Source: Heliopora coerulea (taxonomy: Eukaryota; Cnidaria; Anthozoa; Scleralcyonacea; Helioporidae). From it: a stretch of 64,000 nucleotides of DNA. Shown in pieces: positions 23,100-64,000 of this stretch. Numbering within the stretch: the first letter of the stretch is position 1; every line of letters begins with the position of its first letter. Location of the stretch: positions 271,282 through 335,281 of the forward strand of contig JASJOG010000295.1 of assembly GCA_030142905.1 (NCBI GenBank), given 5' to 3'. Position numbers and translations under genes: made by a program. The notes under the pieces were generated by a model. It made no database searches and was not told where the DNA came from. It was given only the letters and a program-made list of their open reading frames with translations.

Positions 23100-23132
23100 C
23101 CCTGCTTGCACACAACCTTCGGGTTGACAGGG
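23100..23132 (+). other. 3' tail hairpin with CUUGCACA bulge
   Basis: CCCTG 23100-23104 pairs with CAGGG 23128-23132. CTTGCACA 23105-23112 is unpaired opposite A23127. CAACC 23113-23117 pairs with GGTTG 23122-23126 around a TTCG loop. The inner AUUGCAC hairpin of subfamily a is missing here. Confidence 0.6.
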
Positions 23133-24030: not shown

Positions 24031-24122
24031 GTCTACGACCATACCACCGGGAAAGCACCGGTTCTCGTCAGATCACCGAAGTTAAGCCCGGTCGGGCGGA
24101 GTTAGTACTTGGATGGGTGACC
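24031..24122 (+). pseudogene. 5S: 5S rRNA lacking its 3' end, joined to a SINE-like body
   Basis: 5S sequence runs normally to GGGTGACC and then turns into the element body. The last ~27 nt of 5S, the 5S-U2 spacer and U2 nt 1-22 are missing from this unit. The internal promoter region is retained. Confidence 0.85.
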
Positions 24123-25008
24123 CGCCATGGTTCGCTCATTCAAGGCTAACTCCGGCGTGAATTCACAGTCACAGTGGTTGATGACATAGGACATATGAGA
24201 ACCGGTGTAGGAACTGCCGCCAGTCGGCTGCAAGAACATGGCTAAATGGATACATTAACGGACCAAAAGAGTACAGGATAACCCCTTAAACATAGGATAC
24301 CGAGCAGCAAAAAGCTCTCGGACCAGGACATTCCTACGGGAATTCTCAGGACCACACTGTGGTCAGAATACAGGTGGATGAGGTGCGGGGCCATAAAACA
24401 GATGATGACATAAGAGAGTCCTTGGACGAGATTGGGGGGTCTCACTACCAAGCTCTCGTAATACGGATACTGGACAATGAAAATAAGACTACCCATGGAA
24501 CATAGGATAACCTACCAGGCAAAAAGCCGTAGGACCAGGACACCCTCGAGTAAAGAGGACAACCGTTCGCCAATAAGGCTACCCAGTCGTGGACATAATA
24601 CGAGTATGCAAGTTGGGGTCATGGTGGCAGCATGGCCCCGGCAGTGCGGGGCACAGTGAGAGTGTGCCCCAGGAATAACCAAGGTGGTTACAGTGAGAGT
24701 GTGCCCCTAACAGAACCGGAATATGGATAATGAATAAGGACAACCCAAGACCAGCGTGGCATTCCGGCAGCCTCAGTGAGAGTGGGGACAAAGGAAGTTG
24801 AGACACAGTGAGAGTGTGCCCCATGTCGTCTTCTCGGAAAGGACGTAAAATCGTAGGACCAACAAGGAACAGCACCGATTTAAGGCACTAGGCCTAGTGT
24901 GTGTAAAACTAAGTACAAGTGTGTAATAAGTTCGGTTCCCTTGCACAAGTCGTCGGCCCATAGCACTACGGGCCTTAAAGGACTTATGGGAACACCAAAC
25001 CTCAAAAC
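24123..25008 (+). mobile_element. 5S-headed SINE-like element, family A (copy 1)
   Basis: 886 bp of non-coding sequence (978 bp with the 5S head) ending CTCAAAAC exactly at U2 nt 23. Two hairpin modules (24300-24321 and 24511-24533) each end before ACCAGGACA and have compensated stems. Repeats of ACAGTGAGAG occur, one forming a perfect GGGGCACA/TGTGCCCC stem (24648-24670). The tail 24935-24993 shares the UUGCAC-bulge architecture of the U2-nt-22 elements. It looks like a Pol III SINE with 5S-derived head (SINE3 style), unusually long for a SINE. Confidence 0.7.
24935..24993 (+). other. 3' tail structure of family A
   Basis: GTTCCC 24935-24940 pairs with GGGAAC 24988-24993. TTGCAC 24941-24946 is unpaired opposite AT. 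AAGTC 24947-24951 pairs with GACTT 24981-24985. Inside, GGCCC/GGGCC presents a 10-nt loop ATAGCACTAC closed by C-G, one base from AUUGCAC. Confidence 0.6.
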
Positions 25009-41754: not shown

Positions 41755-42636
41755 TCTTGTGGTATCTGCCTCACAGAGTGGATCCATGCGCAGTGTGTGC
41801 TACAGCTGTAACACTCTGTAGGTAATTCGACTAGCCGATCCTTGTAATCGGACACGCTTCGCTCGTCGTTGAGCTTTCTTTTAGTTTTCTTCTTTAAAGT
41901 CTTGTGCTCTCACTCCTGGGAAGGCCGACACTTTAGGTGCTCCGGATACCATTCGGTGTTCGGGGAGGGTCGAGAGCACCCTACTCTTTGAGTAGGCATT
42001 TCTTTTCCTGTAGTGGTTTTTTGGCTTTCTTTCTCTTTTCTGTGTTCTGCGTTTTAGCAGAACACTTTAGTGTTAGTTAGTGTTTTTTAGCGTCTTTGGC
42101 CTCCATTTGCCGTGTAGTGAGGTCAAAGACTAGACTGTTATAACTATTAGTGTTGGTCCCACAATTTTCGGGACCGTTTTCTATTACTCATTAGTAGTGT
42201 TTGTCCCATAATTTTTGGGACGGTGTTTTAGTCTTATCTGGCCTCCACTCATCCGTAGCGAGGTCAGAGACTTTAATTTGCTTTATCTTCCTTATATTAC
42301 AATTAGTGTTTGGTTTTTGGCCCCCATTTCTCTGTAGTGGGGTCAACACCTTGAATTTTCATAACTATTAGTGTTACTTTGTTCTCGACCTCCATTTGTA
42401 GTGGGGTCACCGTCTTGATTTTCATAACACTAGAGTTCTTCCTTCCTTTGGCCTCCATTTCATACGTAGAGGGGTCAAAGACCTGCTTTTATTATATTCT
42501 TAGTGTTTTCTCTGTCCTTTGACCTCCATTCACCTGTAGCGGGGTCAAAGGCTTGCTTCCAGTGTTAGTCCCATTGTTTTAGGGACTGTGTTTTTACCTT
42601 CGTGTTCTTTCTTCTTTCTTTCTTTTTCATTTCAGC
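41755..42636 (+). other. Structured 5' UTR with six hairpin repeats
   Basis: Repeats start near 42098, 42240, 42319, 42388, 42450 and 42520. A small hairpin near 41870 reads GCTC/GAGC where the other copy has GCCC/GGGC, a compensated change. A pyrimidine tract and CAG precede the ORF1 ATG. Confidence 0.6.
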
Positions 42637-45033
42637 ATGCCGTCTCTTTCCACCTCATATACTCCAGAGGACTATGCCCTCTGGAACCAGACGACATGCT
42701 TATTTACTTTAAGTAAAAAAATTGTAGGCTCGGACTCGTCATCGAAAGTCCGAGCCGAGTTTATCAAAGTGATCGGACCTGGCCGCATTTCCGGTGTCCA
42801 AATTCTCCCGGGTTACCAATTCCGGGTAGAATTGAAGACCGTCCGAGACAGGCAGTCCCTGGAACTCCGGGGACTAGATTTTAGGGGTGTCCATCTTACC
42901 CCCCGGCCTGCCTTCGAGGTCTTCCACCAAGTATTTGTGGACCAGGTCCCTTTCCAGGTGCCCAACGAGGCCTTTAAGACAGATCTAGGCCTGTATGGGC
43001 GGGTGGTCGCAGTGAAGCACCTCCCGGTAAAGGGCTACCCAAATATTCAGTCTGGCACCAGAATGGTGACCATGACCATTAAGACGCCAGTCCCACGTTA
43101 CATCAGGGTCGCTGGCTTCTCTTGCACCGCCGGCTACAAGGGACAACCATTTACCTGTAGCCGCTGTGACTCCCCGGGTCACAAAGAGAAGCAGTGCCCA
43201 TTGAGGACTGGCGCAAAGTCCTTTGCCGGTGCTGTACGGGACCGTAGATCAGGTCCCCCTCCCACCGCCCATACCAGTGCGGGCACCTCGGTCACTTTAG
43301 AGGGGGGTCGACGTCATCAGGACCCCCCGGTTGCCAAAAAGACCTCGGCCAAGCCTTCCGCTACCGGGAAGGGCGCTCCACAGCCTCCCCTCCGCCGAGG
43401 GGAGAAAAAACAGGCGTCCAAACCCCGGAACAACACCAACAGCGGGGGGCACAACAACAACAACAACAAAAAAGAGGCCGAGGCCGGTAGTGTGGAGACG
43501 GGCAAGGGTACACGCCGGTCTCCCCCCAGTTCGGAGGGTGGGCGTGTGCCCGACCCCTCCCTGTTCTTGGAAAGGATTGCTCCTTTCCCCATCGCGGCCA
43601 CAGGGGCACCCAAAAAAGGGGGTCGCCGTTCTTCTCTTGGCCCCCTACCCCGTTCCCAAAAACCCCTTACATGTAGTAGGCGGTCGGTGACCATAGCGCG
43701 TCACCGTTCAACATCCTGCCGCTCCACCATCGCGGCAAAAAGGGGTCGCTCCGACGCCTGGCCGGTGCGCAGTGTGCTACCCGGCCGTAAAGGGCGCTTG
43801 CGCATCTTTTGCGCAAAGAGCGGCTCCACACCGCCTACTCCTCCCACCACCACCCCTGTGGTCATCCCGGCCGCACCCACGGTGCGAGCCATTACAGGAC
43901 CGGCCAATAAGTTGGCCATCACTATTCACCCCCACAACACCGGGGGTGACGACTCGGCCAAGACGTTGGAATTGCCTCCAACGTCTTCTACAAAAGACCG
44001 TACCATGGCCGGGATGGCCGATGGTCCGGCCGGTCTTGATAGGGCCCTGGTTCCTTATACAGGGCCCCCTGAGGCTGAGGGTTCAGCCTCTGCGTTAGCC
44101 ATCATGGATGGTTCTGCCAAACAATTGGATCTGCCCCCTACATCATCCGCGGCAGATCCCACATTGGCAGAGATGGCTGACGCACGTCTCGTCCCTCCTC
44201 TCCCGGAGTCCGACTCCGAGGACGACCTGCGGGGCAACAACGTTGTTGACGTGCCCCTGGGGGATTCCCAGGCCCTGGAAGTATTTATGACCGGGGTCTC
44301 GACGCCCGTCAACCCAGGCACACCAACGCCTGAGATCCAGAGTTCTTCTGACTCTGGATCGGAAAGGATGGAGATAGCTTCTTTCTCTCCATCCCATGAC
44401 GGAGCTGTCATCCCCCCCGCGCCTACCGCCGTAGTCGCACAGGTCGCTAATGTGGTCGCATCGGATCACATTAGCCAATTTACGGCCTCGGAAGAAGGCC
44501 TAGTCGTGGTCCACACTGCTTCCCGTGTGGTGGAGCAGACCACCATAGTGGCCACGCAACAGGAGAGTGAGGGAGTAATACCTCCGACACCCGGTGTGAC
44601 AGGGGCCATCCAGCGGACTGTCGTTCAGTCCGCTGTGGGATCGACGATGGTCCTCCCGCCGGCCGTCCAACGTTGTTCGTTGGCGGAGGGCGGACCCGAT
44701 TCATTAGGGTCCACCCCCGACTGGCAGCCATCCGCGCTGGCGCCATTACCTCCTTGCCAGCGCTCCGAGTCTGAGGCTTCAAACCCTCAGCTCACCTATG
44801 ATGGCTGCTCCGACCAGCTTCCGATGTCCGACGACGAATACGCGTCGGCATCAGAGTCGAGCGACGACGACAAGACCTTGGCCGTGTCGGTCAAGGTAGA
44901 AGAACCATCAACCTTGATGGTTCTACGTCGTCGTGGTAGCCGTGGCCCCCGTTCGGGGCCGCTGCCGTTACCCCCTCCGGAGCTTTCCCCAATCGTGGTG
45001 GTTAGCTCCGACGAGGAGGAGAACCACTCCTAG
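42637..45033 (+). CDS. ORF1 protein of U1-targeting element (798 aa)
   Basis: Near-identical to the protein at 13358. The zinc knuckle reads CSRCDSPGHKEKQC. Differences cluster in the low-complexity region, including an AAC-repeat expansion near 43452 that adds Asn residues. Confidence 0.85.
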   Translation: MPSLSTSYTPEDYALWNQTTCLFTLSKKIVGSDSSSKVRAEFIKVIGPGRISGVQILPGYQFRVELKTVRDRQSLELRGLDFRGVHLTPRPAFEVFHQVFVDQVPFQVPNEAFKTDLGLYGRVVAVKHLPVKGYPNIQSGTRMVTMTIKTPVPRYIRVAGFSCTAGYKGQPFTCSRCDSPGHKEKQCPLRTGAKSFAGAVRDRRSGPPPTAHTSAGTSVTLEGGRRHQDPPVAKKTSAKPSATGKGAPQPPLRRGEKKQASKPRNNTNSGGHNNNNNKKEAEAGSVETGKGTRRSPPSSEGGRVPDPSLFLERIAPFPIAATGAPKKGGRRSSLGPLPRSQKPLTCSRRSVTIARHRSTSCRSTIAAKRGRSDAWPVRSVLPGRKGRLRIFCAKSGSTPPTPPTTTPVVIPAAPTVRAITGPANKLAITIHPHNTGGDDSAKTLELPPTSSTKDRTMAGMADGPAGLDRALVPYTGPPEAEGSASALAIMDGSAKQLDLPPTSSAADPTLAEMADARLVPPLPESDSEDDLRGNNVVDVPLGDSQALEVFMTGVSTPVNPGTPTPEIQSSSDSGSERMEIASFSPSHDGAVIPPAPTAVVAQVANVVASDHISQFTASEEGLVVVHTASRVVEQTTIVATQQESEGVIPPTPGVTGAIQRTVVQSAVGSTMVLPPAVQRCSLAEGGPDSLGSTPDWQPSALAPLPPCQRSESEASNPQLTYDGCSDQLPMSDDEYASASESSDDDKTLAVSVKVEEPSTLMVLRRRGSRGPRSGPLPLPPPELSPIVVVSSDEEENHS

Positions 45034-45041
45034 ACATGACA

Positions 45042-48000
45042 ATGTTCAGCGTGGTCTCGCTCAACATCAACGGTCTTAATGACCGTACTAAGCGGACCAC
45101 CTTCATTCACTGGTTGCAGTGTTTGAAGGCTGACATTGTCTGTCTGCAAGAGACGCACGCCGCGTCTCATGCAACATTCAGGAGTTGGTTTTCCAACTCA
45201 GGGTATGCGGTAGCTTCTTCCTGCATTTCCAACAAACGTGCAGGAACGGCTATCCTAGTCTCCTCTAAACACCGCCTAGACAAAGTCTGGCGGGACGAAG
45301 CTGGTCGTTTTGTTCAAGCGGAGGTAGGCATAGGGGAGCAAGTCCTTCGTTTTGTCTCCCTCTATGCCCCAAATAGTAATCCGGCACGAAACAAATTTTT
45401 CGCTTCGTTGCCGGATTTAATGGATATGTGTCGCCCCACATTTGTATGTGGGGATTTTAATGCGGTGTTGGACCCCGACCTCGATCGACGCCATCCTCGA
45501 TCCTTTCAGAGGCCGGCTCCAAACCGCTCTGCCGAAAGCGTGACTGCCCTTCAGGCCTTGTTGTCAGCAACTCAGACCTTTCCAACGTGGCGCTCCCTTC
45601 ACCCAGGAGTACGTACTTACTCCTGGGATCATGCTTCGGGAGATTGCTCCTCCCGAATCGACATGATCTGGGCGCCCACAGGTCTGAAGGACCAGATCCA
45701 GGACTGCGATTACTATCCGTCCTTCTTCACGGATCACCGTTATATCCAGGTTACCTTCTCCCTCGACACAACCTCCGAGGTGAGAGGCCCTGGATATTGG
45801 AAATTTAACATCTCACTCCTCGAAGATCAGGAGTACTGTGATCTCGTGAAGTCGTTCTGGTCCTTTTGGAAGACGCAAGAGTCTGGAGGGGATTTTGAGA
45901 ACTCCTTGGACTGGTGGGACATGGGGAAGTTTTATCTCAGGGAGGTAACTCGTAGTTTTGCCAAAACTAAGGCTCTAGCTAGCTCGTCTGCCCAACGCCT
46001 CTTGTTGCGCCGCCTCCGAACACTCCAGCGTCGGTTTGACGCTGGAGATTCGACCGCTTTCGGAGAGCTGTGCGCCGTACAAGAGGAATTGCGAGAATAC
46101 GAGCTGCACGCAGCTCAAGCGGCGCAGGTCCGCTCTCGCTGCAGATGGGCTGAAGAAGGAGAAGTGTCGTCTGGCTACTTCTTCTCGCTAGAGCAGAAAC
46201 ATCGATCAAAGCAGACTATGAGTGCCATCAAAGACCCTGAGACGGGGACGGTCCGCCACGACCCGATCGACATCTTGGGAGTGTGGCGGACCTACTACGA
46301 GCAGCTCTTTACAGCTCAGAGCTGCGATTCCCCCACCCAGGACCACCTGTTGTCCAAGCTAGTTCGGACTCTCGCTCCTGGTGAGCGAGAGCTCTGTGAA
46401 GGACTCCTCACGTCGGAAGAGTGCGAAGCGGCCCTTAAAGGGATGTCTGCTGGTAAGACTCCCGGGTCGGACGGCTTTCCGATGGAGTTCTATTCGCGCT
46501 TTTGGCCAGTCCTCGGCGCCGATCTCGTGCGTATTCTCAATCTAGCGTACGAGGTCGGGCAATTATCCATCTCCCAACGCCGAGGACTCATCATTGTATT
46601 GTATAAAAAGGGCGACCGGTTACTGACGAAGAACTGGCGCCCTATAAGTCTCTTAAATGTCGACTATAAAATCGCCACCCGCGCTATCGCGGGTCGGCTT
46701 TTAAAAGTAATCGGTTCGGTGGTGTCACCGGACCAAACTTGTGGAGTTCCCGGGAGATCCATAAGCGAAAACCTTTCCACCATCAGGGACCTAATCGACC
46801 ACGCAGCGATGGAGGATATCCCCGTCGCCCTTCTCTCATTAGATCAAGAGAAGGCCTTCGATCGTGTCGACTGGGGATTCCTCTCGCGCGTCCTAGAAAC
46901 CATGGGTTTCGGTCCCGGTTTTCGCAAGTGGATCTCGATATTCTATACGAACATAGAATCCGCCGTAGTCATCAACGGCTGGACTTCCCCTAGCCTCCAC
47001 CCGTCTCGTGGAGTGCGACAGGGTTGTCCTCTCTCCCCGTTACTTTACGTCCTCTGTGCCGAGGTGCTAGCTTGCAATCTGCGAGCTGCACCCGGCATCA
47101 ACGGAGTCCAACTTCCCAACTCTTTAGAGGAACTGAGGGTATCGGGGTATGCCGACGACACTACGGTGGTAGTTACTACGGAGAACTCCATCACAGAAGT
47201 TTTAAACGTTTACGACCTCTACGAGCTGGGCTCGGGGTCGAAACTAAATTTAGGCAAGTCGAAGGCCATGTGGGTCGGCAAATGGAAAGATCGTACCGAC
47301 CGGCCCCATGGTCTCCATTGGGTAACGGAGTTACCATTACTCGGGGCAGTTTTTTCTGCCTCGGATTATTCAAGTGCCACCTGGGACCCCAAAGTAGAGA
47401 AGGTAGAGAAGCGTCTTGCATCCTGGAAGGGTCGTTCTCTTTCCTTTCAGGGCAAGGCGCTCATTATAAATGCATTAGCATTGTCCCAGATCTGGCACTT
47501 GTGCTCTATATTCGTGATGCCAGCAAAGGTGGCATCGCGAATTAACAAGGCGATTTGGTCTTTCTTTTGGTCGGGCGGCCGAGATCTAGTCGCCCGCAGG
47601 AGTATGGTTCAGCCGCGAGCCCACGGAGGCTTTGGTATCGTGGACTTTCGGTTGAAAGCGGACGCTATGGCGCTTCAGTGGCTAAAGCGGTTCCGCAGCG
47701 ACTCCTGCGCCAAATGGAAGACCTTCTTTTTCCATAATTTTTACCGGGTCTTCATGTATGACCCGGTGACATCCCTTAAGTTAGGTAGCACTTTATTTAA
47801 CCGCACTAGGTGTTCACGTCTCCCGACCTTTTACAAACATCTGGTCGAGGCCTGGAGAAAATTACATGGCGGCGTCTTGGCAGACGGTCGTTTGGCCCTC
47901 GGTGTCGAGCGGGACGCCCCTCTAGAGGTGGCGTCCATGTCCACCCAGTCTGCCTACCGCGTTGGACTTGCTATCCAACGCGAACCACCACACTGCGTCG

Positions 48001-48602
48001 CCAAATTCCGCCCCACATACGGCGAGCTCCATTGGCCCGAGACGTGGCACCAATTAAGCTACCTGACTCTGGACAGGACGATAGTTGATCTGAACTGGAA
48101 GATCGCGCACGGAGTTTTATACACCGCCTCGCGGCTGGTCCGCAGTTTTGGCTACCGCAACGTCGATCCCCGGTGCCATTGCGGTGCAGAAGAAGAGACG
48201 CTGGCTCATCTCTTCTTCGAATGCTCCTTTGCGCAGTTCTTGATCAACTGGGTATACTTCCATCTTCTGTCTGTGGATCCATCTGCTGGCCCGTTCACCG
48301 TCACCGAAGTTCTCTTCGGTTTTCCGCCAGCACGCCGCAGACGCATACCCCAGATCGTGATGTGGATGCTACACGTGATGAAGCATCGCATCTGGCTAGC
48401 CCGGAACAACTTTAGGTTCCGCGGAACGCCACCTGTCCCGGATGATTATATCCAAGGGGCCATCGTCCGTATCAAGTTTGTCTTGGCACTAAGAGCACGC
48501 CAATGCCATACGGACGCACAACGCGAGCGTTTTAGAAAAGAGTGGCTCGCAAATGGTACCCTTGGTCGCCTTGTTTCGGAGAAGCTGGTCTTCTCTTTTT
48601 AA
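45042..48602 (+). CDS. ORF2: APE endonuclease-reverse transcriptase (1,186 aa)
   Basis: Same domain order as at 15751. The start chosen is the ATG conserved in both copies; this copy also has an in-frame ATG 6 nt upstream (45036). It has CGDFNAVLD with Cys, SRIDMIW, DQEKAFDRV and YADD. The C-terminal finger has one extra residue (CX1CX8HX4C). Confidence 0.92.
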   Translation: MFSVVSLNINGLNDRTKRTTFIHWLQCLKADIVCLQETHAASHATFRSWFSNSGYAVASSCISNKRAGTAILVSSKHRLDKVWRDEAGRFVQAEVGIGEQVLRFVSLYAPNSNPARNKFFASLPDLMDMCRPTFVCGDFNAVLDPDLDRRHPRSFQRPAPNRSAESVTALQALLSATQTFPTWRSLHPGVRTYSWDHASGDCSSRIDMIWAPTGLKDQIQDCDYYPSFFTDHRYIQVTFSLDTTSEVRGPGYWKFNISLLEDQEYCDLVKSFWSFWKTQESGGDFENSLDWWDMGKFYLREVTRSFAKTKALASSSAQRLLLRRLRTLQRRFDAGDSTAFGELCAVQEELREYELHAAQAAQVRSRCRWAEEGEVSSGYFFSLEQKHRSKQTMSAIKDPETGTVRHDPIDILGVWRTYYEQLFTAQSCDSPTQDHLLSKLVRTLAPGERELCEGLLTSEECEAALKGMSAGKTPGSDGFPMEFYSRFWPVLGADLVRILNLAYEVGQLSISQRRGLIIVLYKKGDRLLTKNWRPISLLNVDYKIATRAIAGRLLKVIGSVVSPDQTCGVPGRSISENLSTIRDLIDHAAMEDIPVALLSLDQEKAFDRVDWGFLSRVLETMGFGPGFRKWISIFYTNIESAVVINGWTSPSLHPSRGVRQGCPLSPLLYVLCAEVLACNLRAAPGINGVQLPNSLEELRVSGYADDTTVVVTTENSITEVLNVYDLYELGSGSKLNLGKSKAMWVGKWKDRTDRPHGLHWVTELPLLGAVFSASDYSSATWDPKVEKVEKRLASWKGRSLSFQGKALIINALALSQIWHLCSIFVMPAKVASRINKAIWSFFWSGGRDLVARRSMVQPRAHGGFGIVDFRLKADAMALQWLKRFRSDSCAKWKTFFFHNFYRVFMYDPVTSLKLGSTLFNRTRCSRLPTFYKHLVEAWRKLHGGVLADGRLALGVERDAPLEVASMSTQSAYRVGLAIQREPPHCVAKFRPTYGELHWPETWHQLSYLTLDRTIVDLNWKIAHGVLYTASRLVRSFGYRNVDPRCHCGAEEETLAHLFFECSFAQFLINWVYFHLLSVDPSAGPFTVTEVLFGFPPARRRRIPQIVMWMLHVMKHRIWLARNNFRFRGTPPVPDDYIQGAIVRIKFVLALRARQCHTDAQRERFRKEWLANGTLGRLVSEKLVFSF

Positions 48603-48949
48603 CGTTTTTAACCTCTTTTGTTAGGTCCCGGCCTCGGCGGTCACCTTAATTGGTCGTACTTCCGTTGTCGGGACGTTGTTTCTTCTAGGCTTCCTAGGAT
48701 TCCTGTTTTTAACGTTTTTAACGTTTTTAACTTTTTTAACCTCTTTCTCTTCTAGGTTCCGGCCTCGGCGGTCGCCTTAACTGGTTGTACTTCCGTTGTC
48801 GGAACACTAGCTCTTTTAGGTTTCCTAGGATTCCTTTTTTCAATTCTTTTTCTTGTAGAAAAATTATCTTGCGTCAGAACTTAGCTTCCGACTTTGGGGG
48901 TGAGGGTCATGCCCTCAGCTAGTTTGCGGCTTTGTAGGCCCCCCCTGTT
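48603..48949 (+). other. 3' UTR with duplicated hairpin module
   Basis: Same two modules as in the first copy. The second module pairs GTTCCG with CGGAAC, restoring a Watson-Crick pair where the first copy has a wobble. Confidence 0.55.
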
Positions 48950-48999
48950 AAAGATATACTCATTGCACTTACGCCCTTGGAGCGTAAGAGTATATCTTT
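48950..48999 (+). other. Terminal hairpin with 7-nt AUUGCAC bulge
   Basis: Identical to 19659-19708, with the ATTGCAC bulge at 48962-48968. It is preserved although the surrounding UTR has changed. Confidence 0.75.
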
Positions 49000-49097
49000 A
49001 TCAAAATAAAACTTACCTGACGCGAGAGGTACTTTGATCATGAAGGAAGTCCTCTCAGGATGAGGCCCTCTCATTGCACTTCGATTGGGTTGACTCC

Positions 49098-49585: not shown

Positions 49586-51207
49586 TGGACAAGAGGTGTC
49601 TGTGAGTTCACTTGCGATCACGAAACGACGATCAAGAGCTGATCTACGAGTTCTACGAGTCTTCGAGTGCTGTTAGACGCTGGTGGTGGATGCCATGCTT
49701 GAGTCTCCGACTCATAACACTGCCACGTCTTCCGACGAGATTAACAACGTCTCAAGTGGTGCCGTAGCTGTTGACCGTGCCCAGAGTGGCGGTTCTTTTC
49801 AGAGCCTTACAGCTGCGGCCCTCTTGCCCCACAGGGATCGCTGTGCCATGGTGGAAATACCGGAGCTTGCTCTTCGAGGGAAGCCACCACTGAAGCCGGA
49901 AGAAGTCTGGGACACCTTTGGCAAGGATTTTGTCCCAATAAATGACTTCTTTACTTGCATCCAGCTGGTCCGGCCAAACCGCCTCAGAGTCTGGTGCCCT
50001 TCTGCCAACGTGTTAGAGGATGTTCTCAACACCGGGCTCACGCTTAGGGGCCATCCCCTAAGAATCAAACCAATTGTGGACAGATGCTGGCTGACAGTCA
50101 CACATTTGCCGTATGGTTTGCCAGAAAAGGCCATCACCGAATTTTTTTCTAAATTCGGTGAGGTACGAAGTCTCAGATTTGTACAGTTCCGTAAAATTTT
50201 TACGGGCACTGTCAAACTGTTGATGACATTGCACACAACTGTGCCTACACGAATCCGTGTACTCGGACATGCGGGCCTGGTCTATCACCCTGGCCAGGCT
50301 CGCACCTGCTTTCACTGTGGCAACGTGGGCCATGAGTCCAAACGTTGCCCGGGAAAAACGTCTCCGTCTCCCAAGCCAAAGCGAAAGAGACGCAGACCCA
50401 AGAAGACAACTGAGGCGACCAACCAACCGTCCAGTCAATCTAGGTCCTCGACCACAGTGTCAATGGAGGTTCCACCCGGGAATGACCAATCACAGGTCGT
50501 CCATCCAAACAGCAAGGAGCCCGATCAGTCCACACCTCCATCGGACTCCTCAAATGAATCACCACCTAACCCAACCACTACCGTCCCCAAGGACGAGGAA
50601 GAACAACCAGAGGAGGACAGTTCCCCAAAAGGAACATTTGGCCCTCCTATCTCCGAAAACATCGACGAACGAGTTGCCGCCAATCCTCCAACTGAGGAAA
50701 GGCCCATCCCGCAAGTATGCTGTACGGACCTACAACCAGCCCAGCATACGCTGAACACCAGCCGTAAAGCCGTACGAAAGGACAATCCAGCTCCTTTCGT
50801 CTTTGGCCTGGGTTTCGGGCGTTCACCGACGACCGAAATAGGAGTTTTTCACTTCCAAAAAGTAAAACCAGATACCAGGAGGAATCCGTCGGATCCTCCC
50901 AACAAGGTGTCTTCTCTAGTCTGACAAGGGTCTGCGGACCCACATGTATTCATCCCGAATCATACACGTTTTTTGTCACCTCACTCCTTCGGCAGGGCGT
51001 AGTTACTTCTGCTTCAGCCCTGTCGCGGGTGACCATGCGGAGAATCTGGCGCAAGGGAGTGGGTCTCGCGAGCCCATTTGGTCTGAGTATCTAGCGATAT
51101 GATACCTCCCTGGAGTTTGCCCTGTTGCACACAGCCCGGGTCGCATTGCACTACAGCAGACCCGTACCGTCAGGTACAAAGGTTGTCAGGGAAGTCAAGC
51201 TTAAAAC
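49586..51207 (+). mobile_element. ORF1-only element at U2 nt 22/23 (subfamily a, copy 4)
   Basis: 1,622 bp, matching the 29947 copy including the CTGACAAGGGTC variant. Confidence 0.85.
49695..50924 (+). CDS. ORF1-like zinc-knuckle protein (409 aa)
   Basis: The predicted protein is the same as that at 30056. Confidence 0.82.
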   Translation: MLESPTHNTATSSDEINNVSSGAVAVDRAQSGGSFQSLTAAALLPHRDRCAMVEIPELALRGKPPLKPEEVWDTFGKDFVPINDFFTCIQLVRPNRLRVWCPSANVLEDVLNTGLTLRGHPLRIKPIVDRCWLTVTHLPYGLPEKAITEFFSKFGEVRSLRFVQFRKIFTGTVKLLMTLHTTVPTRIRVLGHAGLVYHPGQARTCFHCGNVGHESKRCPGKTSPSPKPKRKRRRPKKTTEATNQPSSQSRSSTTVSMEVPPGNDQSQVVHPNSKEPDQSTPPSDSSNESPPNPTTTVPKDEEEQPEEDSSPKGTFGPPISENIDERVAANPPTEERPIPQVCCTDLQPAQHTLNTSRKAVRKDNPAPFVFGLGFGRSPTTEIGVFHFQKVKPDTRRNPSDPPNKVSSLV

Positions 51208-53221: not shown

Positions 53222-53315
53222 GTCTACGACCATACCACCGGGAAAGCACCGGTTCTCGTCAGATCACCGAAGTTAAGCCCGGTCGGGCGGAGTTAGTACT
53301 TGGATGGGCGACCGC
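53222..53315 (+). pseudogene. 5S: 5S rRNA lacking its 3' end, joined to a SINE-like body
   Basis: Normal 5S up to ACCGC, with one change (GGGCGACC for GGGTGACC) just before the junction. The rest of 5S, the spacer and U2 nt 1-22 are missing. Confidence 0.85.
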
Positions 53316-53626
53316 ATCGTGGTCAGCTCGTCCCAGTCCCCTGACCCCCAGCTATTCAACGGCATCTACTATGGTTGTAGACATACACGAAGCACTACGG
53401 TGCGAAACTCACGAAGCACTACGGTGCGAAACTCACGAAGCACTACGGTGCGAAACTCACGCAGCGCTTCAAAGAAGTGCGGAAATTCCCGACGCCTTCT
53501 CGGATAAGGGCGTAAAACTGTAGGTCCTTCCCGATTCCCCGATTTGGGCTTAGCCTAGTGGGAAAGATACCACCGAGCAGTTCCCTTGCACACCCGGAGC
53601 TGTGAGGGGTACAACAAACCAAAAAC
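53316..53626 (+). mobile_element. 5S-headed SINE-like element, family B
   Basis: 311 bp of body (405 bp with the 5S head, a typical SINE size), ending CAAAAAC at U2 nt 23. It contains three 24-bp direct repeats (53388-53459). A region homologous to family A follows: both read CTTCTCGGA, a GTAAAA segment and CCTAGTG, with a stem CGCC/GGCG (53493-53512) where A has CGTC/GACG. The tail has the TTCCCTTGCACA motif of family A. Confidence 0.7.
53388..53459 (+). repeat. Three 24-bp direct repeats in family B
   Basis: Each repeat begins CGAAGCACTACGGTGC, in which GCAC and GTGC can pair, and ends AAACTCA. The three are perfect; a degenerate fourth start (CGCAGCGCTTC) follows. Confidence 0.85.
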
Positions 53627-54509: not shown

Positions 54510-54570
54510 GTCTACGACCATACCACCGGGAAAGCACCGGTTCTCGTCCGATCACCGAAGTTAAGCCCGG

Positions 54571-54601
<31 letters not shown>
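54510..54601 (+). pseudogene. 5S: 5S-like head with divergent bases, joined to family A body
   Basis: It reads CGTCCGATC and GGGCGGGGTT where the array 5S has CGTCAGATC and GGGCGGAGTT. CGTCCGATC is the common form in other protostome 5S genes. The end of 5S, the spacer and U2 nt 1-22 are missing. Confidence 0.85.
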
Positions 54602-55489
54602 CGCCATGGTTCGCTCATTCAAGGCTAACTCCGGCGTGAATTCACAGTCACAGTGGTTGATGACATAAGGACATATGAGAACCGGTGTAGGAACTGCCGC
54701 CAGTCGGCTGCAAGAACATGGCTAAATGGACACATTAACGGACCAAAAGAGTACAGGATAACCCCTTAAACATAGGATACCGAGCAGCAAAAAGCTCTCG
54801 GACCAGGACATTCCTACGGGAATTCTCAGGACCACACTGTGGTCAGAATACAGGTGGATGAGGTGCGGGGCCATAAAACAGATGATGAATAAGAGAGCCC
54901 TTGGACGAGATTGGGGGGTCTCACTACCAAGCTCTCGTAATACGGATACTGGACAATGAAAATAAGACTACCCATGGAACATAGGATAACCTACCAGGCA
55001 AAAAGCCGTAGGACCAGGACACCCTCGAGTAAAGAGGACAACCGTTCGCCAATAAGGCTACCCAGTCGTGGACATAATACGAGTATGCAAGTTGGGGTCA
55101 TGGTGGCAGCATGGCCCCGGCAGTGCGGGGCACAGTGAGAGTGTGCCCCAGGAACAACCAAGGTGGTTACAGTGAGAGTGTGCCCCTAACAGAACCGGAA
55201 TATGGATAATGAATAAAGGACAATCCCAGACCAGCGTGGCATTCCGGCAGCCTCAGTGAGAGTGGGGACAAAGGAAGTTGAGACACAGTGAGAGAGTGCC
55301 CCATGTCGTCTTCTCGGAAAGGACGTAAAATCGTAGGACCAAAAAGGAACAGCACCGATTTAAGGCACTAGGCCTAGTGTGTGTAAAACTAAGTACAAGT
55401 GTGTAATAAGTTCGGTTCCCTTGCACAAGTCGTCGGCCCATAGCACTACGGGCCTTAAAGGACTTATGGGAACACCAAACCTCAAAAAC
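54602..55489 (+). mobile_element. 5S-headed SINE-like element, family A (copy 2)
   Basis: 888 bp, nearly the same as the 24123 copy with scattered substitutions and small indels. The tail structure, including the ATAGCACTAC loop, is unchanged. It ends CTCAAAAAC at U2 nt 23. Confidence 0.7.
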
Positions 55490-57622: not shown

Positions 57623-57753
57623 TTGTTTGCCGAACAATAAGGTACGCTACAGCAACGTCCGCTGACCAAAACGAACCACAACATGTTTGTCGGCGTTTTT
57701 CGTTCTTAAACTGATTTTTTTCCTTTTCGCTATCGCTTCTCGGCCTCTTGGCT

Positions 57754-58138
57754 TCGACCGGGTTTCAGCGATCAAAGGTACTATTGTGGACGTATGCTTA
57801 GTGGAGTCCTCCCTATAACACTTTAGTATCCTTCATTCCAGCCTCCGAGATTTCCACGAGTATCTCTTCGAGTTTTACTACGAGTCTTACTACGAGTACT
57901 TCTCCGAGTTTTTCAACCAGTTGGCTACTCTATACCGAGTTTCCTGGGTTCTGGCAACGAGATCTTCGCCGAACTCCAAGTACAGCTGGCGTGACCTACT
58001 AGTGATCTATTGGATAGATCACTTGACTGTTGGCTCTCTCACGTTGTGAACAAGCGGCCGTACGCATACCGGACTTCGTGTGTGTTCCTTTCTGGGCATT
58101 TAGTGCGTTTACCCAAAAGGTTAGTGTGTGTATTTAGA
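57754..58138 (+). other. 5' UTR of U2-targeting element
   Basis: Non-coding, with repeated ACGAGT or TCGAGT motifs (about 57855-57915), also found in the leaders of the ORF1-only elements. A frame open from a TTG at 58010 has no support as coding. Confidence 0.6.
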
Positions 58139-59719
58139 ATGTCCATACCGTATGCAAATCGTTCGGCTGTCGCTGTCATTCCAACTTTGGCAGTGCGTGA
58201 CCAACCTAAAGTCACCTTAGATGAAGTTCTACAAGACTTCCATGAACAGTATGAGCCGCTAGGCGAGTACTTTTACTGTGTGCAGTTTATATCATCTACC
58301 AAACTGCGCATAACATTCAACTCTGCTGCACAGATGGAAGACTGCCTTAGTGCAGGGCTTTCCCTTAGAGGTTTCCCATTGGAACCCCAGCCCATATCCA
58401 CCAAAAAATGGGTTTCAGTACAACGCCTCGCGATCGGTATCCCTGTCGAGGCGGCCACACGCATCCTTGGCAAGTACGGTAAAGTGTTCGCGGCAAAACA
58501 TGAAATAAAAAGAGGCATATATACAGGTACCATCTCCGTTCTGATGGAGATACAAAAAAACATTCCCTCTGCTCTACGAATCCGTGGGCACACGTGCCTC
58601 ATCTTTTACCGTGGCCAGACCCGGACATGTTTTAGGTGCCAGTCGCCCGACCACACAACCCGCGACTGCCCATACCTGCGCTACCAAGCTAACGCCACCG
58701 GTGATAACAATCCTCCAACTGATGAGAGGGGAACGCCGAATGCTCCACCTCCATCACACGATCGCCACACCCCGGAGGCTACAACTTCCGTCGTAGATGA
58801 AACAGCCCCTCCAGAGACTGGTCATGCTACTAACATGGACGTCAGTCCACCAGCAACCCACGACCAGCCTCCCTCCCCCACGACCGTGACAGATCCGGAG
58901 GGCCCTAATCAAGAAGGGTCAGAAAGTCTCCAAGACCAAGACCCAATCAACTCTGACTCCGACCTAGACCGGGTCGAAGACTCCAGACCTGTGGAGACCG
59001 ACGCCACAGTCCTTCCCCACAGTACCGATGCTGACGAATCAACCTCGCCAAGCACCGTGCTCACCGGCCTCGCCGATGTCGCCGCCGGTGAATCTACCAC
59101 AACGGGTACACCTATCTCAGACGAACCAGTCGACCAGAGCACCCCTACCAGTTCTGTCAGTGCTTCCAATCCGACTGCCCCAGAATACCCGGAGGTCTTG
59201 GCTCCGCCAGCCTCCTACGCATGTGCCGTCGACCCGCAGGCAGCTGCGGCGGCCACACCCACTGACACCCAACCGAGTGTGAGCCTGCCACCATCACACT
59301 TCACGGACTTTCCATCATTGGATGATCCACCAGTTGGGGACGCCGACAAAGGGGGGTTTAAAGTTCCACGTCGTTCGCGCCGACCATCAACCCGACCACC
59401 CTCACGAACGCGATCTCGATCGCGATCAACGTCGAGTACGGACTCCACCTCCTCGGCCGGTCCACCTACCAGGAAACGTACCCAGCCGTCTCTGGTTGGC
59501 ACAGGACATACCTCCCGCCGCCATTCCAGAGAAATTAATATTACCTTGGGGCAATTTGGTGCCCTTGAGGATTTTGTACCAGACAAAGGCACTGTCCCTG
59601 ACATTCGCCTGTCTAACTCCGGAAACCTACTTCCCAACATAGAATCACCAGGGAACCTACGACCTCGGCCTACAACCGAGCTGGACTCCACTCTTGAGTC
59701 TCTACTGCAATCAACATGA
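58139..59719 (+). CDS. ORF1 protein of U2-targeting element (526 aa)
   Basis: RNA-binding ORF1. The start is the first ATG (MSIPYANR), close to where similarity to the ORF1-only proteins begins. N-terminal RRM-like blocks (FYCVQFISSTKLRI and WVSVQRLAIGIP) precede a CX2CX4HX4C knuckle at residues 164-177 (CFRCQSPDHTTRDC). An acidic, Thr/Pro-rich middle follows, then an Arg-Ser stretch (SRTRSRSRSTSS) near residue 420, unlike the Lys-Arg clusters right after the knuckle in the short elements. The TGA overlaps the ATG of ORF2. Confidence 0.85.
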   Translation: MSIPYANRSAVAVIPTLAVRDQPKVTLDEVLQDFHEQYEPLGEYFYCVQFISSTKLRITFNSAAQMEDCLSAGLSLRGFPLEPQPISTKKWVSVQRLAIGIPVEAATRILGKYGKVFAAKHEIKRGIYTGTISVLMEIQKNIPSALRIRGHTCLIFYRGQTRTCFRCQSPDHTTRDCPYLRYQANATGDNNPPTDERGTPNAPPPSHDRHTPEATTSVVDETAPPETGHATNMDVSPPATHDQPPSPTTVTDPEGPNQEGSESLQDQDPINSDSDLDRVEDSRPVETDATVLPHSTDADESTSPSTVLTGLADVAAGESTTTGTPISDEPVDQSTPTSSVSASNPTAPEYPEVLAPPASYACAVDPQAAAAATPTDTQPSVSLPPSHFTDFPSLDDPPVGDADKGGFKVPRRSRRPSTRPPSRTRSRSRSTSSTDSTSSAGPPTRKRTQPSLVGTGHTSRRHSREINITLGQFGALEDFVPDKGTVPDIRLSNSGNLLPNIESPGNLRPRPTTELDSTLESLLQST

Positions 59720-62700
59720 ACTGTCAATTACTGACACTGAATGTCCAGGGACTTCGTGCTCTGGATAACAGACAAACACTAATATCGTGGCTGAATTGTT
59801 TTAAGCCACATATCGTTTGCCTACAAGAGACGCATTCCATCTCGGAGGAGGAATTTTCAGACTGGTTTTCCTGTACTAACCCCATCACAACTAATACTAA
59901 CTATAAATGTATATCCTCGCCCGGCACGGCACGTAGTCGCGGTGTTGCCATCCTTTACCGTCCCGAGGCCTTGTCGGTGGTTAGTAGTTGGAAAGACGAC
60001 TCTGGGAGACTGGTTATTGCGGAATTTGCCCGTAATAATTTAAACTTCCAGGTCGCAAGTCTTTATGGCCCTAACAACAAAAAAGACGGTAGTCTCTTTT
60101 TCGAATCCTTCTACCAAGCCCTAGACCCAGACCTTCCCGTGTTACTGTGTGGGGACTTTAACACAGTGGTAGATCCGTGCTCGGATCGCCTCGGCTGTAA
60201 TCCGAGGTCCCCCTGGGCTTACAACTGGTCACCTTCTCTGCGTGATTTAACCAACTCCTTCGAACTCTGCGATGTATGGCGCGCTATGCATCCCGGAGTC
60301 GAGGAGTTCACGTGGAGGAGGCCCGGTGGCGGCCAGGCCTCCCGGATCGATATGATCTGGTTACCACAGCGATACCTGGGTCTCGTCTCGTTAGTGGGGA
60401 TCTATCCCTTCTTTCGATCAGATCACTCTTACGTGTATCTGGAAATCAACCTTCCATCTGGGGTTGATAGGGGCAAAGGATTGTGGAAGTTCAACACCTC
60501 TCACCTCAAAGATGAGGCCTTCTGCAACGAAATCGCAGGATTTTGGGTGGATTGGCGTCGTGAGCGGAATCGTTTTTCCTCTCTCTCATCATGGTGGGAT
60601 GCCGGCAAAGCCCGGATTAAAAGGTTGATCCGTCGTTTCTCGCGGGAGAAATCTCAACAGCAGCGACGCAAAATCAAATCGTTGAACGCTACCGTCGAAC
60701 ATGTCCAAAGGCGAATTAATAACGGTGAGCAGCTCCCCGGTCTGCTGGAGGAAGTGAGAGCAGAGCTAGCCTCCGAGCTTCTCACGGAAGCCAAGGGGGC
60801 CCAGTTGCGTGCAGCCACGCGGTGGGCGGAAGACGGGGAGTCGTCGACGGCCTATTTCCTGCGCCAAGAGAAGGTCCGGGGGCAGCAGCGCTTAATCAGT
60901 GGCGTTAAACGCCCTGACGGCACGCTTGCTACCTCCACTAAGGACATGATTGGCGTATGGCGGGATTACTACTTCAAGCTGTTCTCGTCAGAACACCTAG
61001 ACGAGGGAGAACAACACCCCTTCCTAGAGCGTCTTGAACGTAAGTTGTCCCCTGCCGAGACCGAGTTGTGTGAGGGAGACCTCACGGAAGCAGAGTGTGA
61101 AAGGGCACTCAAACAGATGGCTTCCAATAAGTCGCCGGGGGTAGATGGCCTTCCTGCCGAATTTTACGTTCGGTTCTGGGGGTTGTTGGGCCCAGACTTG
61201 GTTAACGTATTCAACTCGTGCTACCGTTCCGGAAAAATGTCCAAATCCCAACGCTCGGGTACGATAACGCTCTTGTTCAAGAAGGGGGACCCTCTTGAAA
61301 CCGCGAATTGGCGTCCAATCACCCTCCTGTGTGCGGATTACAAGATCGCGGCCAAGGCGCTAGCGAATCGCCTCCTCCTGGTTATATCGTCCGTGGTGTC
61401 GCCGGATCAATCGTGCGGCATTCCCGGCCGGTGCGTGGGGGAGAACGTACGTCTTCTCCACGACGTCGTAGATTATGCCAACTCTCAGGCATTACCCGCT
61501 GCTGTGCTCTCCCTTGATCAGGAAAAAGCCTTCGACCGTGTAGAGTGGACCTACATGCAGAAGGTTCTGGTCAAGATGGGATTTGGCCCCTCTTTTCGCC
61601 GCTGGGTGGCCCTGTTGTACGGTGAGGTGTTTTCGGCGGTGATCGTGAACGGCTTCGTTTCGGAGCTGTTTCCCGTTCGCCGGGGGGTTAGGCAAGGTTG
61701 TCCTCTTTCGCCGCTTTTGTACGTCCTGGTCGCAGAGTCGTTGGCCTGCGCCATCCGCGCAGACCCCGCCATTGACGGGTTTCCTCTCCCTGCTGGGGGA
61801 GTGCGACACAAGATCTCGCAATATGCCGACGACACGTCCGCACTGGTGACCTCGGACGCTTCGATTCTCGCTTTGGTCCGGTTGTTCGAGAGGTACGAAA
61901 AAGGATCGGGGGCTCGGCTTAACATTACCAAATGTAAAGCCCTCGTCTTGGGCCCATGGAGATCTCGCACCTCTTTCCCAGTGGACTTTCGGGTTTCCTC
62001 CAGCCATATCGAGGTCCTTGGAAGCCGCCTCTCAAACGAGGGAGGCGAGGACTGGGGGCCCCACCTCAAAAAGCTGGAGAAGGTCTTTCAGTCTTGGGCA
62101 CACCGTAAGCTGTCCTTTAGGGGTCGGGCACTAATCGCTAACTCTCTGGGCCTAAGCACATTCTGGTACTTAGGCTCCATCAGACTAATCCCAACTAATA
62201 TAATTCATGACATTAATAAACTTGTATTTCCTTTTGTTTGGAGTAAAAAGAGGGAATGGCTCAGCAGGTCTTCGGTGACGCAGCCCCTCGATCACGGTGG
62301 TCTAGGGGTTGTAGAAGTGACTCGCAAGCTGTCGTCTCTTCACGTCATGTGGGTGAAGCGCTTTCTTTCCGGTGAATACCGTGGTTGGCAGAGTTTCTTC
62401 CAGTTCTATCTTCGTAGGGCCTTTTTAGCGGAACCGGTCAACCGAGTCTTTGGCCTCTCCAACGTCAACGAAGCGACGCTCCGTCAAATGCCACCATTCT
62501 ACCGCGCAGTTCTCACCGCCTGGTATGCTGTAGGAGGCACTCAAGCCTTTGGAGCCTTTATTGTGCCCAGACCAAATGCCGACCCGATGCCAGTAGCCGA
62601 ACTTACCGCCAAGAGCATCTATACCACCCTAGGCCGACTCCACCGCCAACCACACCGGTGCATCACCAAAGTCCGCGAACTCGGACTCGGCCCAGTCGAA

Positions 62701-63258
62701 TGGCCACGAGTCTGGCACAACCTCAATCTGCTTCGTTTTGTGCGGCCAGCCCTCGACACATCCTGGCTTATAGCCCACTGCATCTTACCCACCGCCGCCC
62801 GCCTCATTCATTTTGGCATGTCCGTGGACCCTGCATGCCATTGCAGGGCTCCTGAAACTCTCGAGCACCTATTCGTGGACTGTCCGTTTGTCCAACTAAC
62901 CTTACGCTGGTTTACCATCCTCCTCCACCGCGCCCGACCAACCGTGCCGCGCCCGACAGCCACGGACATCTTGTGGGCCTTTCCATCCGCTGCTAACATA
63001 CCAGCTGGTCTCATCGCCCTACTCGGGATTATCCGCCACCAAACCTGGATAGCCCGCAATGCTTATCGTTTTGATGGCCTTCAGCCGGAACCCCAAACCT
63101 CGCTGAAGAGGATCAAATCATCTCTTCGATTCCTCTTGCGAGTGCAACAGCGCCACTGTCTCGCCACCACCTTCGAGCAGGAATGGCTAGCTGGGGGTGT
63201 CCTCGGATCTTTGCAGCCGGATGGGTCTCTTTTATTCTCAGCTGAGGTGCATTCTTAA
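59716..63258 (+). CDS. ORF2: APE endonuclease-reverse transcriptase (1,180 aa)
   Basis: The APE/EEP endonuclease has N9, LQETH with E38, CGDFNTVVD, SRIDMIW and SDHS. The reverse transcriptase has RPITLLCADYKIA, LDQEKAFDRVEW, RQGCPLSPLLY and YADD (703-706). The C-terminal finger is CHC then HLFVDC (CX1CX7HX4C). It is clearly related to ORF2 at 15751 but distant from it. The ATGA overlap with ORF1 suggests coupled termination and reinitiation. No disabling change is seen. Confidence 0.92.
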   Translation: MNCQLLTLNVQGLRALDNRQTLISWLNCFKPHIVCLQETHSISEEEFSDWFSCTNPITTNTNYKCISSPGTARSRGVAILYRPEALSVVSSWKDDSGRLVIAEFARNNLNFQVASLYGPNNKKDGSLFFESFYQALDPDLPVLLCGDFNTVVDPCSDRLGCNPRSPWAYNWSPSLRDLTNSFELCDVWRAMHPGVEEFTWRRPGGGQASRIDMIWLPQRYLGLVSLVGIYPFFRSDHSYVYLEINLPSGVDRGKGLWKFNTSHLKDEAFCNEIAGFWVDWRRERNRFSSLSSWWDAGKARIKRLIRRFSREKSQQQRRKIKSLNATVEHVQRRINNGEQLPGLLEEVRAELASELLTEAKGAQLRAATRWAEDGESSTAYFLRQEKVRGQQRLISGVKRPDGTLATSTKDMIGVWRDYYFKLFSSEHLDEGEQHPFLERLERKLSPAETELCEGDLTEAECERALKQMASNKSPGVDGLPAEFYVRFWGLLGPDLVNVFNSCYRSGKMSKSQRSGTITLLFKKGDPLETANWRPITLLCADYKIAAKALANRLLLVISSVVSPDQSCGIPGRCVGENVRLLHDVVDYANSQALPAAVLSLDQEKAFDRVEWTYMQKVLVKMGFGPSFRRWVALLYGEVFSAVIVNGFVSELFPVRRGVRQGCPLSPLLYVLVAESLACAIRADPAIDGFPLPAGGVRHKISQYADDTSALVTSDASILALVRLFERYEKGSGARLNITKCKALVLGPWRSRTSFPVDFRVSSSHIEVLGSRLSNEGGEDWGPHLKKLEKVFQSWAHRKLSFRGRALIANSLGLSTFWYLGSIRLIPTNIIHDINKLVFPFVWSKKREWLSRSSVTQPLDHGGLGVVEVTRKLSSLHVMWVKRFLSGEYRGWQSFFQFYLRRAFLAEPVNRVFGLSNVNEATLRQMPPFYRAVLTAWYAVGGTQAFGAFIVPRPNADPMPVAELTAKSIYTTLGRLHRQPHRCITKVRELGLGPVEWPRVWHNLNLLRFVRPALDTSWLIAHCILPTAARLIHFGMSVDPACHCRAPETLEHLFVDCPFVQLTLRWFTILLHRARPTVPRPTATDILWAFPSAANIPAGLIALLGIIRHQTWIARNAYRFDGLQPEPQTSLKRIKSSLRFLLRVQQRHCLATTFEQEWLAGGVLGSLQPDGSLLFSAEVHS

Positions 63259-63710
63259 GGTCAGATGAAATACAAAGGTAAGAACACTAATCTATCCATA
63301 TAGGGGCTTTTTTCCCCGGGTCTCCGTCTAAGTTTTCTTCTGGAGGGGGTGCTTGGTGCCGAGGGTCTCCTTAACCGGTGTACTTGACGCCCCAAGTGCT
63401 CTCCCCTTTTATGTTTTATTATTTGCGAGGGAGGGCCCAGTACCGAGGGTCTCCTTAACCGGTGTACTTGACGTCCTGAGCACTTTCTCGCCTTTACATG
63501 ATTATTATTTGCTTGGACGTCTGCGGACTAAGGCCACGTTTCACCGCCAGACACCTTCATTTTCCACCTCACGGTCCGTCGGTGAAACGGCGACGAGATA
63601 CTACGCACTGAGTAGCCGACCGTCCTACCACCTTGTCGTTTCAGGCGTGGAGAGGGTTTCGCGAGCCCTGTAACTCCGTAGCCAGCGATATGCTACCTCC
63701 GTGGATTATC
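63259..63710 (+). other. 3' UTR of U2-targeting element
   Basis: It contains an 84-bp-period duplication (GAGGGTCTCC at 63361 and 63445, followed by TTAACCGGTGTACTTGACG in both). Further on, GCGAGCCC and AGCGATATG-TACCTCC correspond to the 3' UTRs of the ORF1-only elements. No ORF. Confidence 0.65.
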
Positions 63711-63769
63711 CCCCGCTGCACACAGCTCCAGAGGCCCATTGCACCGTCGGGCGCTCACAGCTGTCGGGG
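63711..63769 (+). other. 3' tail structure with CUGCACA bulge and AUUGCAC loop
   Basis: CCCCG 63711-63715 pairs with CGGGG 63765-63769. CTGCACA 63716-63722 is unpaired opposite T63764. CAGCT 63723-63727 pairs with AGCTG 63759-63763. Inside, GCCC 63734-63737 pairs with GGGC 63749-63752 around the 11-nt loop ATTGCACCGTC closed by C-G. U2 stem-loop IV also has an 11-nt loop. Confidence 0.65.
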
Positions 63770-64000
63770 AGAAATTCAAAACAAGATCAAGTGTAGTATC
63801 TGTTCTTATCAGCTTAATATCTGGTATGCCAGGCAACGCCTGGCTCATATATTAAACTGATTTTTGGACCTCGGCCATGGGATTGAAGCTTGCTTCACCC
63901 TGGCCACGGGTTGTCTCGGTCTTGCACTAAATCCGAGTACGGCCCCTTCCCCAAAGGGGAAGAACAACAATAACAATTGAAATGATATGAAAGGAAAACG

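Follow-up and report, generated by a model that had tools for sequence, protein, structure and literature searches.

Human U1A contacts the heptamer AUUGCAC together with the closing C-G pair of U1 stem-loop II (SLII), binds a near-identical site in an internal loop of its own pre-mRNA, and loses approximately 5 kcal/mol upon an A1-to-G change, according to the available portion of PMC2203988. In metazoans outside the jawed vertebrates, one protein, SNF, serves both U1 and U2 (PMC5992148, available part). In stringent LINEs, the ORF2 protein (ORF2p) binds the stem-loop of its cognate tail, where the stem is recognized generally and the loop specifically (PMC4176376, available part). For many families of target-specific LINEs, the means of locating the target gene and of choosing the RNA to be copied have yet to be established. 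As elements that target snRNA genes, the available portion of PMC4640811 (2015) gives two LINEs of U2, Keno and Utopia, and two DNA transposons, Dada-U1 and Dada-U6; that portion names no U1-specific LINE. A search of open papers at the level of titles and abstracts returned neither U1A/SNF sites in LINE tails nor a U1-specific LINE.

The tails analyzed here resemble U1 SLII and U2 SLIV, the sites of U1A, U2B'' and SNF, in the heptamer AUUGCAC or CUUGCAC, in the C-G-closed apical loops and in the variable letters after the heptamer. They differ in being the 3' tails of transposons, in presenting the motif mostly in a bulge, to which an apical site is often added, and in that protein binding is putative here. 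In the PIE of the U1A mRNA, too, two stems flank an asymmetric internal loop that carries a heptamer of the U1A type, but the PIE regulates polyadenylation of a host mRNA, whereas the present tails are retrotransposon 3' ends with one or two sites. With the tails of the stringent LINEs ZfL2-1, ZfL2-2 and UnaL2 they share a structured form that is common to non-autonomous copies and in which the stems change while unpaired letters are kept; unlike those, the tail is larger and multi-part, and its unpaired code resembles an snRNA protein site. Keno (Tx1 clade) and Utopia also target snRNA genes, and their site, U2 nt 38/39, is occupied in the same arrays. The elements of main concern here lie instead at U2 nt 22/23, and neither this position nor U1 is among the targets of snRNA-targeting LINEs in the available portion of PMC4640811.

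Elements inserted in the U1-5S-U2 arrays

The window, a stretch of 64,000 nucleotides (C218:271282-335281) from a 430-Mb genome, lies inside tandem U1-5S-U2 arrays, a type of linkage known from the coral Acropora pruinosa (PMC8167085, available part). The host animal is probably a coral. Sequence was sampled from C218:165001-335281, C591:1-70000 and eight more stretches on C102 and C446. Within the sequence read, two positions in U2 genes carry insertions. At the first, nt 22/23, 6-kb LINEs, ORF1-only copies of 1.5-1.8 kb and SINEs with 5S heads were inserted without duplication, while nt 38/39 was occupied by other elements with duplications of ~20-21 bp. The longest of the latter that was examined has an open frame of 1,380 codons with C2H2-like fingers and a weak reverse transcriptase match (24% identity), and the group is taken to be Utopia-like from its site and architecture. 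U1 genes were broken after nt 18 by a further LINE. The complete nt-22 LINE, whose tail is termed type A, is located in the window as follows.

57732-57753, plus strand: U2 nt 1-22, flanking the type A LINE on its 5' side
57754-63782, plus strand: complete U2-nt-22 LINE, type A, with no target-site duplication
58139-59719, plus strand: ORF1 (from the ATG at 58139), with an N-terminal RRM-like fold and a CCHC zinc-knuckle match under Pfam's cut-off
59716-63258, plus strand: ORF2, with apurinic-type endonuclease, reverse transcriptase and zf-RVT
63783-63952, plus strand: U2 nt 23-192, flanking the LINE on its 3' side

The N-terminus of the ORF1 protein (ORF1p) is predicted to be RRM-like (pLDDT 82.6, pTM 0.57). 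Its top Foldseek matches were UP1 and hnRNPA2B1 at a TM of ~0.3; these and SFPQ/NONO lead the best 50 rows, from which U1A is absent. A sequence search against solved structures returned CCHC proteins and weak RRM matches to NONO/PSPC1; at E up to 10, the 36 sequences returned include no U1A. These matches lend no support to a U1A-like domain in ORF1p, although one is conceivable. Homologues numbered 796 for ORF2 and 13 for ORF1; among the 120 ORF2 homologues listed, the best match with an organism name belongs to the octocoral Paramuricea clavata, at 54% identity across 61% of the query. No ORF2 relative was observed among 223 stretches of viral contigs, and genome contigs held one locus, 30% identical, in a symbiont MAG. 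The ORF1-only derivatives in the window (7480-9102, 21427-23148, 26142-27682 and others) measure ~1.5-1.7 kb; they lack ORF2 but retain ORF1 frames 390-474 aa long.

Forty-five nt-22 junctions from four contigs were classified into 16 tail variants, a count that adds three C446 loci (L001-L003) to the 316,781 bases used for the descriptor scan below; a 46th junction, cut by the end of a stretch, was kept out. Copies per variant were A 9, A2 2, B 4, B2 3, C 3, C' 3, D 4, E 5, E3 3, F 1, G 1, H 3, H2 1, I 1, I2 1 and J 1, and weight was placed on variants rather than copies because many copies look like array duplicates. LINEs carry tails A, A2 and C, ORF1-only copies B, B2, D, E, F and G, and SINEs H, I and J; the elements with C' and E3 were assigned no class by length. 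Many pairs of nt-22 families have a homologous 3' UTR, with ~72-90% identity over ~60-290 nt by blastn.

Tail architecture, covariation and the constancy of UGCAC

A conserved 3' stem-loop, in full or variant form, is common to the LINEs, the ORF1-only copies and SINEs H and I; SINE J is without it. The type A tail at 63711-63769 reads CCCCG-CTGCACA-CAGCT-CCAGAG-GCCC-ATTGCACCGTC-GGGC-GCTCAC-AGCTG-T-CGGGG, and its parts and the other tails in the window are listed here.

63678-63696, plus strand: upstream 3'-UTR hairpin, GTAGC-CAGCGATAT-GCTAC (other types have the stem GTACC/GGTAC or GTATC/GATAC)
63711-63715, plus strand: 5' strand of stem P2, CCCCG, pairing with 63765-63769
63716-63722, plus strand: left bulge CTGCACA, facing a single T (63764)
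63723-63727, plus strand: 5' strand of stem P3, CAGCT, pairing with 63759-63763
63738-63748, plus strand: apical loop ATTGCACCGTC on GCCC/GGGC (63734-63737, 63749-63752), with a C-G closing pair
63759-63769, plus strand: 3' strand of P3, AGCTG, then T, then 3' strand of P2, CGGGG
9015-9086, plus strand: type D tail, ORF1-only element (repeated at 31481-31552, 38230-38301 and 51120-51191)
23100-23132, plus strand: type E tail, single hairpin with CTTGCAC bulge (repeated at 35515-35547 and 41133-41165)
27634-27666, plus strand: type F tail, single hairpin
24936-24992, plus strand: type H tail of the 5S-headed SINE at 24031-25008 (second copy 55416-55472)
53577-53603, plus strand: SINE I hairpin, with the 11-nt loop CTTGCACACCC at 53585-53595

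The bulge architecture is present in 14 variants, namely the LINE of the U1 gene and 13 of the nt-22 variants (I, I2 and J lack it). An outermost stem, P1, occurs in C, C', D, E, E3 and F. Nine variants out of 16, namely A, A2, B, B2, C, C', D, H and H2, add a second site in an apical loop with a closing C-G; it reads UGCAC in seven of these and AGCAC in H and H2, and the C-G lies directly 5' of the heptamer in all eight apical-loop types counted (A2 stands outside that count). The preliminary description had held that the tails of the complete element (A), one ORF1-only subfamily (D) and one SINE family (H) are built alike, and that further ORF1-only subfamilies keep CTTGCAC on a single hairpin; the stems, bulges and loops were found as stated in the former, and the latter in types E and F. 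P1, the upstream 3'-UTR hairpin and the tail of the U1 element go beyond that description. In the upstream hairpin, the loop YAGCGATAT is near-constant and the stem varies with pairing preserved; some elements also have a similar stretch, of the TAGCGATCG type, at their 5' end.

Stems that differ in sequence and nonetheless pair had also been proposed, and this is borne out by the alignment. Pairing was observed in 70/70 cells for both P2 and P3 (14 variants), with two-sided changes at 4/5 P2 pairs and 5/5 P3 pairs (12 variants, A2 and G being left out), and in 36/36 cells for P1 (six variants), with two-sided changes at 5/6 pairs. The innermost two apical pairs were formed in 16/16 cells (two-sided changes at 1/2 pairs), and the upstream hairpin in 45/45 cells of nine variants (1/5 pairs). 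When 3' strands were swapped among 8 tail types, the observed pairing was equalled in 1/10,000 trials for P2 and 3/10,000 for P3, and among the 7 nt-22 types alone in 9/10,000 and 38/10,000, respectively; these figures are guides rather than probabilities, since the types are related and the alignment was made by hand to fit the structure. A descriptor of a 5-bp stem, TTGCAC and a 5-bp stem, scanned over both strands of 316,781 bases, gave 10 distinct matches, nine of which were tails (eight nt-22 and one U1), while 40 permuted 6-mers gave a mean of 1.3 and a maximum of 5 matches. In a fold control with 300 shuffles, where the motif was fixed and the remainder shuffled, 0 to 6 shuffles were as good as the real sequence for the bulges of A, B, C, C', D, E, E3 and H, and 0 to 4 for the apical loops of A, B, C, C' and H, but 50 for the loop of D; the values were 1/300 for SINE I, 0/300 for I2, and 31/300 for the U1-LINE bulge, whose unpaired value was 0.46. 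Chance hairpins are rejected on the strand swaps, the fold shuffles and the permuted-motif scan.

Against these changing stems, the letters of the bulge are nearly constant. Among the 14 variants, the bulge 5-mer differed by position in 26/455 comparisons (6%), all of which come from A2 and G, and the stems in 815/1,820 (45%); when the U1 LINE is left out, the counts are 24/390 and 645/1,560. In the nine apical loops, heptamer positions 4-7 (GCAC) show no differences, positions 1, 2 and 3 show 8, 8 and 14 differences, respectively, in 36 comparisons each, and the letters following the heptamer vary (CGTC, TACA, TAC, TTC). The C after UGCA is constant in 14/14 bulges and 9/9 loops. UGCAC itself is present in 13/16 nt-22 variants and 41/45 copies. 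The longer form AUUGCAC occurs in the loops of A, A2, B, B2, C and D and in the U1-LINE bulge, and CUUGCAC in the bulges of E, E3 and F and the loops of I and I2. UUGCAC with its preceding base paired is found in the bulges of B, B2, C, C', D, H and H2, and neither heptamer occurs in the loops of C', H and H2, in the bulges of A, A2 and G, or in J. The base before UUGCAC in the bulges varies between types, being U (B), A (C), G (D and C') or C (E), and in most bulges it is paired.

The departures are specific. The A2 bulge is CCGCACA, with a CGCAC core, beside an intact AUUGCAC loop (two copies on two contigs, one with long ORFs); the G bulge CUUCCAC, with a UCCAC core, is CTTCCACA; the C' apical loop, GTGCACCGTC (also given as GUGCACCGUC), has GUGCAC in place of the heptamer; and the loop of SINE H is AUAGCAC. 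SINE J (L031, end 8440), whose body is related to SINE H, ends at nt 22 with the hairpin CCTCT-CTAGT-AGAGG, without UGCAC. The early rule for loop and bulge accordingly stands for most variants and fails for the C' loop, the bulges of A2 and G, and SINE J. Because A2, G and SINE J depart, UGCAC is strongly favoured but dispensable. SINE I holds CUUGCACACCC in its 11-nt hairpin loop (12 nt in I2), matching the host U2 loop CUUGCACUAAA in heptamer and length. The letters of the host U2 3' hairpin, CTTGCACTAAA, and of the host U1 loop, ATTGCACTTC, are both present, the former as described earlier; the U2 loop is assigned by homology, as the MFE of the isolated piece forms a 3-bp mini-stem within it. 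At the nt-38 site, TGCAC was found in the last 120 nt at 0/18 junctions (one of these being an array-edge fragment whose insertion is unproven).

The LINE in the U1 gene provides a more distant comparison.

12584-19719, plus strand: LINE in the U1 gene, between U1 nt 1-18 and nt 3-164, with a 16-bp duplication (second copy 41755-49010)
19659-19708, plus strand: tail hairpin of this LINE, with the 7-nt bulge ATTGCAC at 19671-19677
48950-48999, plus strand: tail hairpin of the second copy, with the bulge at 48962-48968

In the first copy, the ORFs are 794 and 1185 aa long. Compared with the nt-22 LINE, the U1 LINE shows 40% identity along the entire ORF2, and 33% identity in the RRM-like region of ORF1 (175 columns). 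The tail reads AAAGATATACTC-ATTGCAC-TTACGC-CCTTGGA-GCGTAA-GAGTATATCTTT. In 4/4 copies, the exact U1 loop heptamer AUUGCAC lies in an asymmetric bulge with a C-G pair on its 5' side, although the drawn bulge is not the MFE form (-17.4 vs -18.0 kcal/mol). The likeness to U1 and U2 snRNA loops that had been suggested for the nt-22 tails is borne out by the heptamers, and gains further support from this bulge. Since the two ORF2 sequences are only 40% identical, the motif was either retained through deep divergence or arose twice. A polyadenylation inhibitor of the PIE type would have a pair of neighbouring U1A-type sites ahead of a poly(A) signal. The end of the U1 LINE has AATAAA and one UGCAC site; two UGCAC sites are present in A, B, B2, C, C' and D, and AATAAA occurs in the last 60 nt of 0/46 nt-22 junctions.

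Possible readers of the tail

We infer that the tail is a mobilisation signal, because LINE, ORF1-only copies and SINEs have it in common, as in stringent LINEs. It would be the 3' signal of the U2-nt-22 LINE lineage, used in trans by the ORF1-only derivatives and the SINEs, and its covarying stems would display an unpaired, base-specific UGCAC in an asymmetric bulge. Host SNF, a protein of the U1A/U2B'' type, would be the most likely reader. Docking of SNF is predicted with a nearly even chance of being correct, and is favoured because the UUGCAC-type site resembles the U1A target and SNF serves both U1 and U2. A LINE RNA bearing the docking site of U1 SLII or U2 SLIV would then behave like an snRNA precursor, with nuclear retention, transport to U1/U2 loci, or an escape from polyadenylation such as that caused by the PIE as possible effects; judged from their sequence, the elements may pass themselves off as snRNAs. 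That two deeply diverged LINE lineages in U1 and U2 genes use an snRNP-protein docking site to travel as counterfeit snRNAs, and that ORF1-only and SINE satellites copy it, is put forward tentatively, at somewhat below an even chance.

Besides the covarying stems, the near-constant UGCAC and the descriptor scan, this reading is favoured by the AUUGCAC bulge of the U1 LINE, by the lack of the motif in the nt-38-site elements and by the heptamer of SINE I in a loop of U2 length. Against it stand the departures in H, C', A2, G and J, the variable base before UUGCAC as opposed to the A1 dependence of U1A, the weak performance of the U1-LINE bulge and the D loop in the shuffles, the RRM-like fold of ORF1p itself, and the shared ancestry of the nt-22 families. 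Because many of these families have a common ancestry, they are not independent trials; independent invention within them is rejected, many pairs having a common 3' UTR. The word "independently" in the preliminary description is not supported, while its structure and its likeness to snRNA loops hold. Two partly separate lines with the motif are the U1 LINE and SINE I, in view of the 40% identity of ORF2 in the former and the 11-nt loop of the latter. That a short tail was simply inherited in one lineage, its likeness to the U1A site being meaningless, agrees with the homology of the nt-22 3' UTRs, by which sharing of the motif within the lineage counts once. This is nevertheless improbable, since stems and bulge core diverge so unequally (45% against 6%), the motif recurs in other settings in the U1 LINE and SINE I, and permuted motifs gave on average 1.3 matches against 10.

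The elements' own proteins are the main rival as reader, though with a chance clearly less than even: UGCAC would be read by the tail-binding region of ORF2p or by the RRM-like domains of ORF1p, and the U1/U2 likeness would be accidental or aid targeting via the nascent snRNA. Stringent LINEs provide the precedent, their ORF2p binding the tail stem-loop (PMC4176376, available part). The presence of the tail in ORF1-only copies and SINEs fits as well, as do the RRM-like N-terminus of ORF1p, a region also present in the U1-LINE ORF1 (33%), and its weak CCHC match. However, occurrence of the motif in a 5' bulge, an apical loop and a single-hairpin bulge would suit a single-strand-binding RRM better than a fixed ORF2p pocket, an argument silent on ORF1p, and an arbitrary code would equal the heptamer of the target RNAs in roughly 1 in 1,000 cases, as a rough estimate before the choice among known motifs. 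RNA-RNA pairing is very improbable as the source of the letters. UGCA is self-complementary, which would permit kissing of bulge and loop or an RNA dimer, and the C' loop holds the 6-nt palindrome GUGCAC; yet the pairing is broken without compensation in A2, where CGCA in the bulge stands against UGCA in the loop, and in H, where UGCA in the bulge stands against AGCA in the loop, and the invariant C after UGCA is unneeded for kissing.

The code is unusual in that a UUGCAC-type site is unpaired in several settings, is preceded by a closing C-G where it lies in an apical loop, and is followed by variable letters. Binding of the tails by SNF would mean that a parasite enlists a protein belonging to the product of the gene it targets, and would connect snRNP biology with the targeting of retrotransposons. 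Should a protein of the element be the reader of UGCAC instead, the covarying tail would still indicate the recognition code used by a group of LINEs directed at U1 and U2.

The 5S heads of the SINEs

SINEs with 5S heads were located at 24031-25008, 53222-53626 and 54510-55489 in the window, at the L031 end 8440 and at the reverse-complement L036 end 8982. Their right end lies at U2 nt 22/23, whereas on the left they pass into the 5S gene of the array itself. Seven copies were compared with the array spacer of C218 over the 60 bp upstream: six agree with it at 59 or 60 positions, and the C591 copy, where the spacer differs, at 30/60. Because the upstream 60 bp are array spacer, the 3' part of 5S, the spacer and U2 nt 1-22 have been lost at these insertions, which suggests that the 5' end of the SINE was resolved via homology to the upstream 5S gene.
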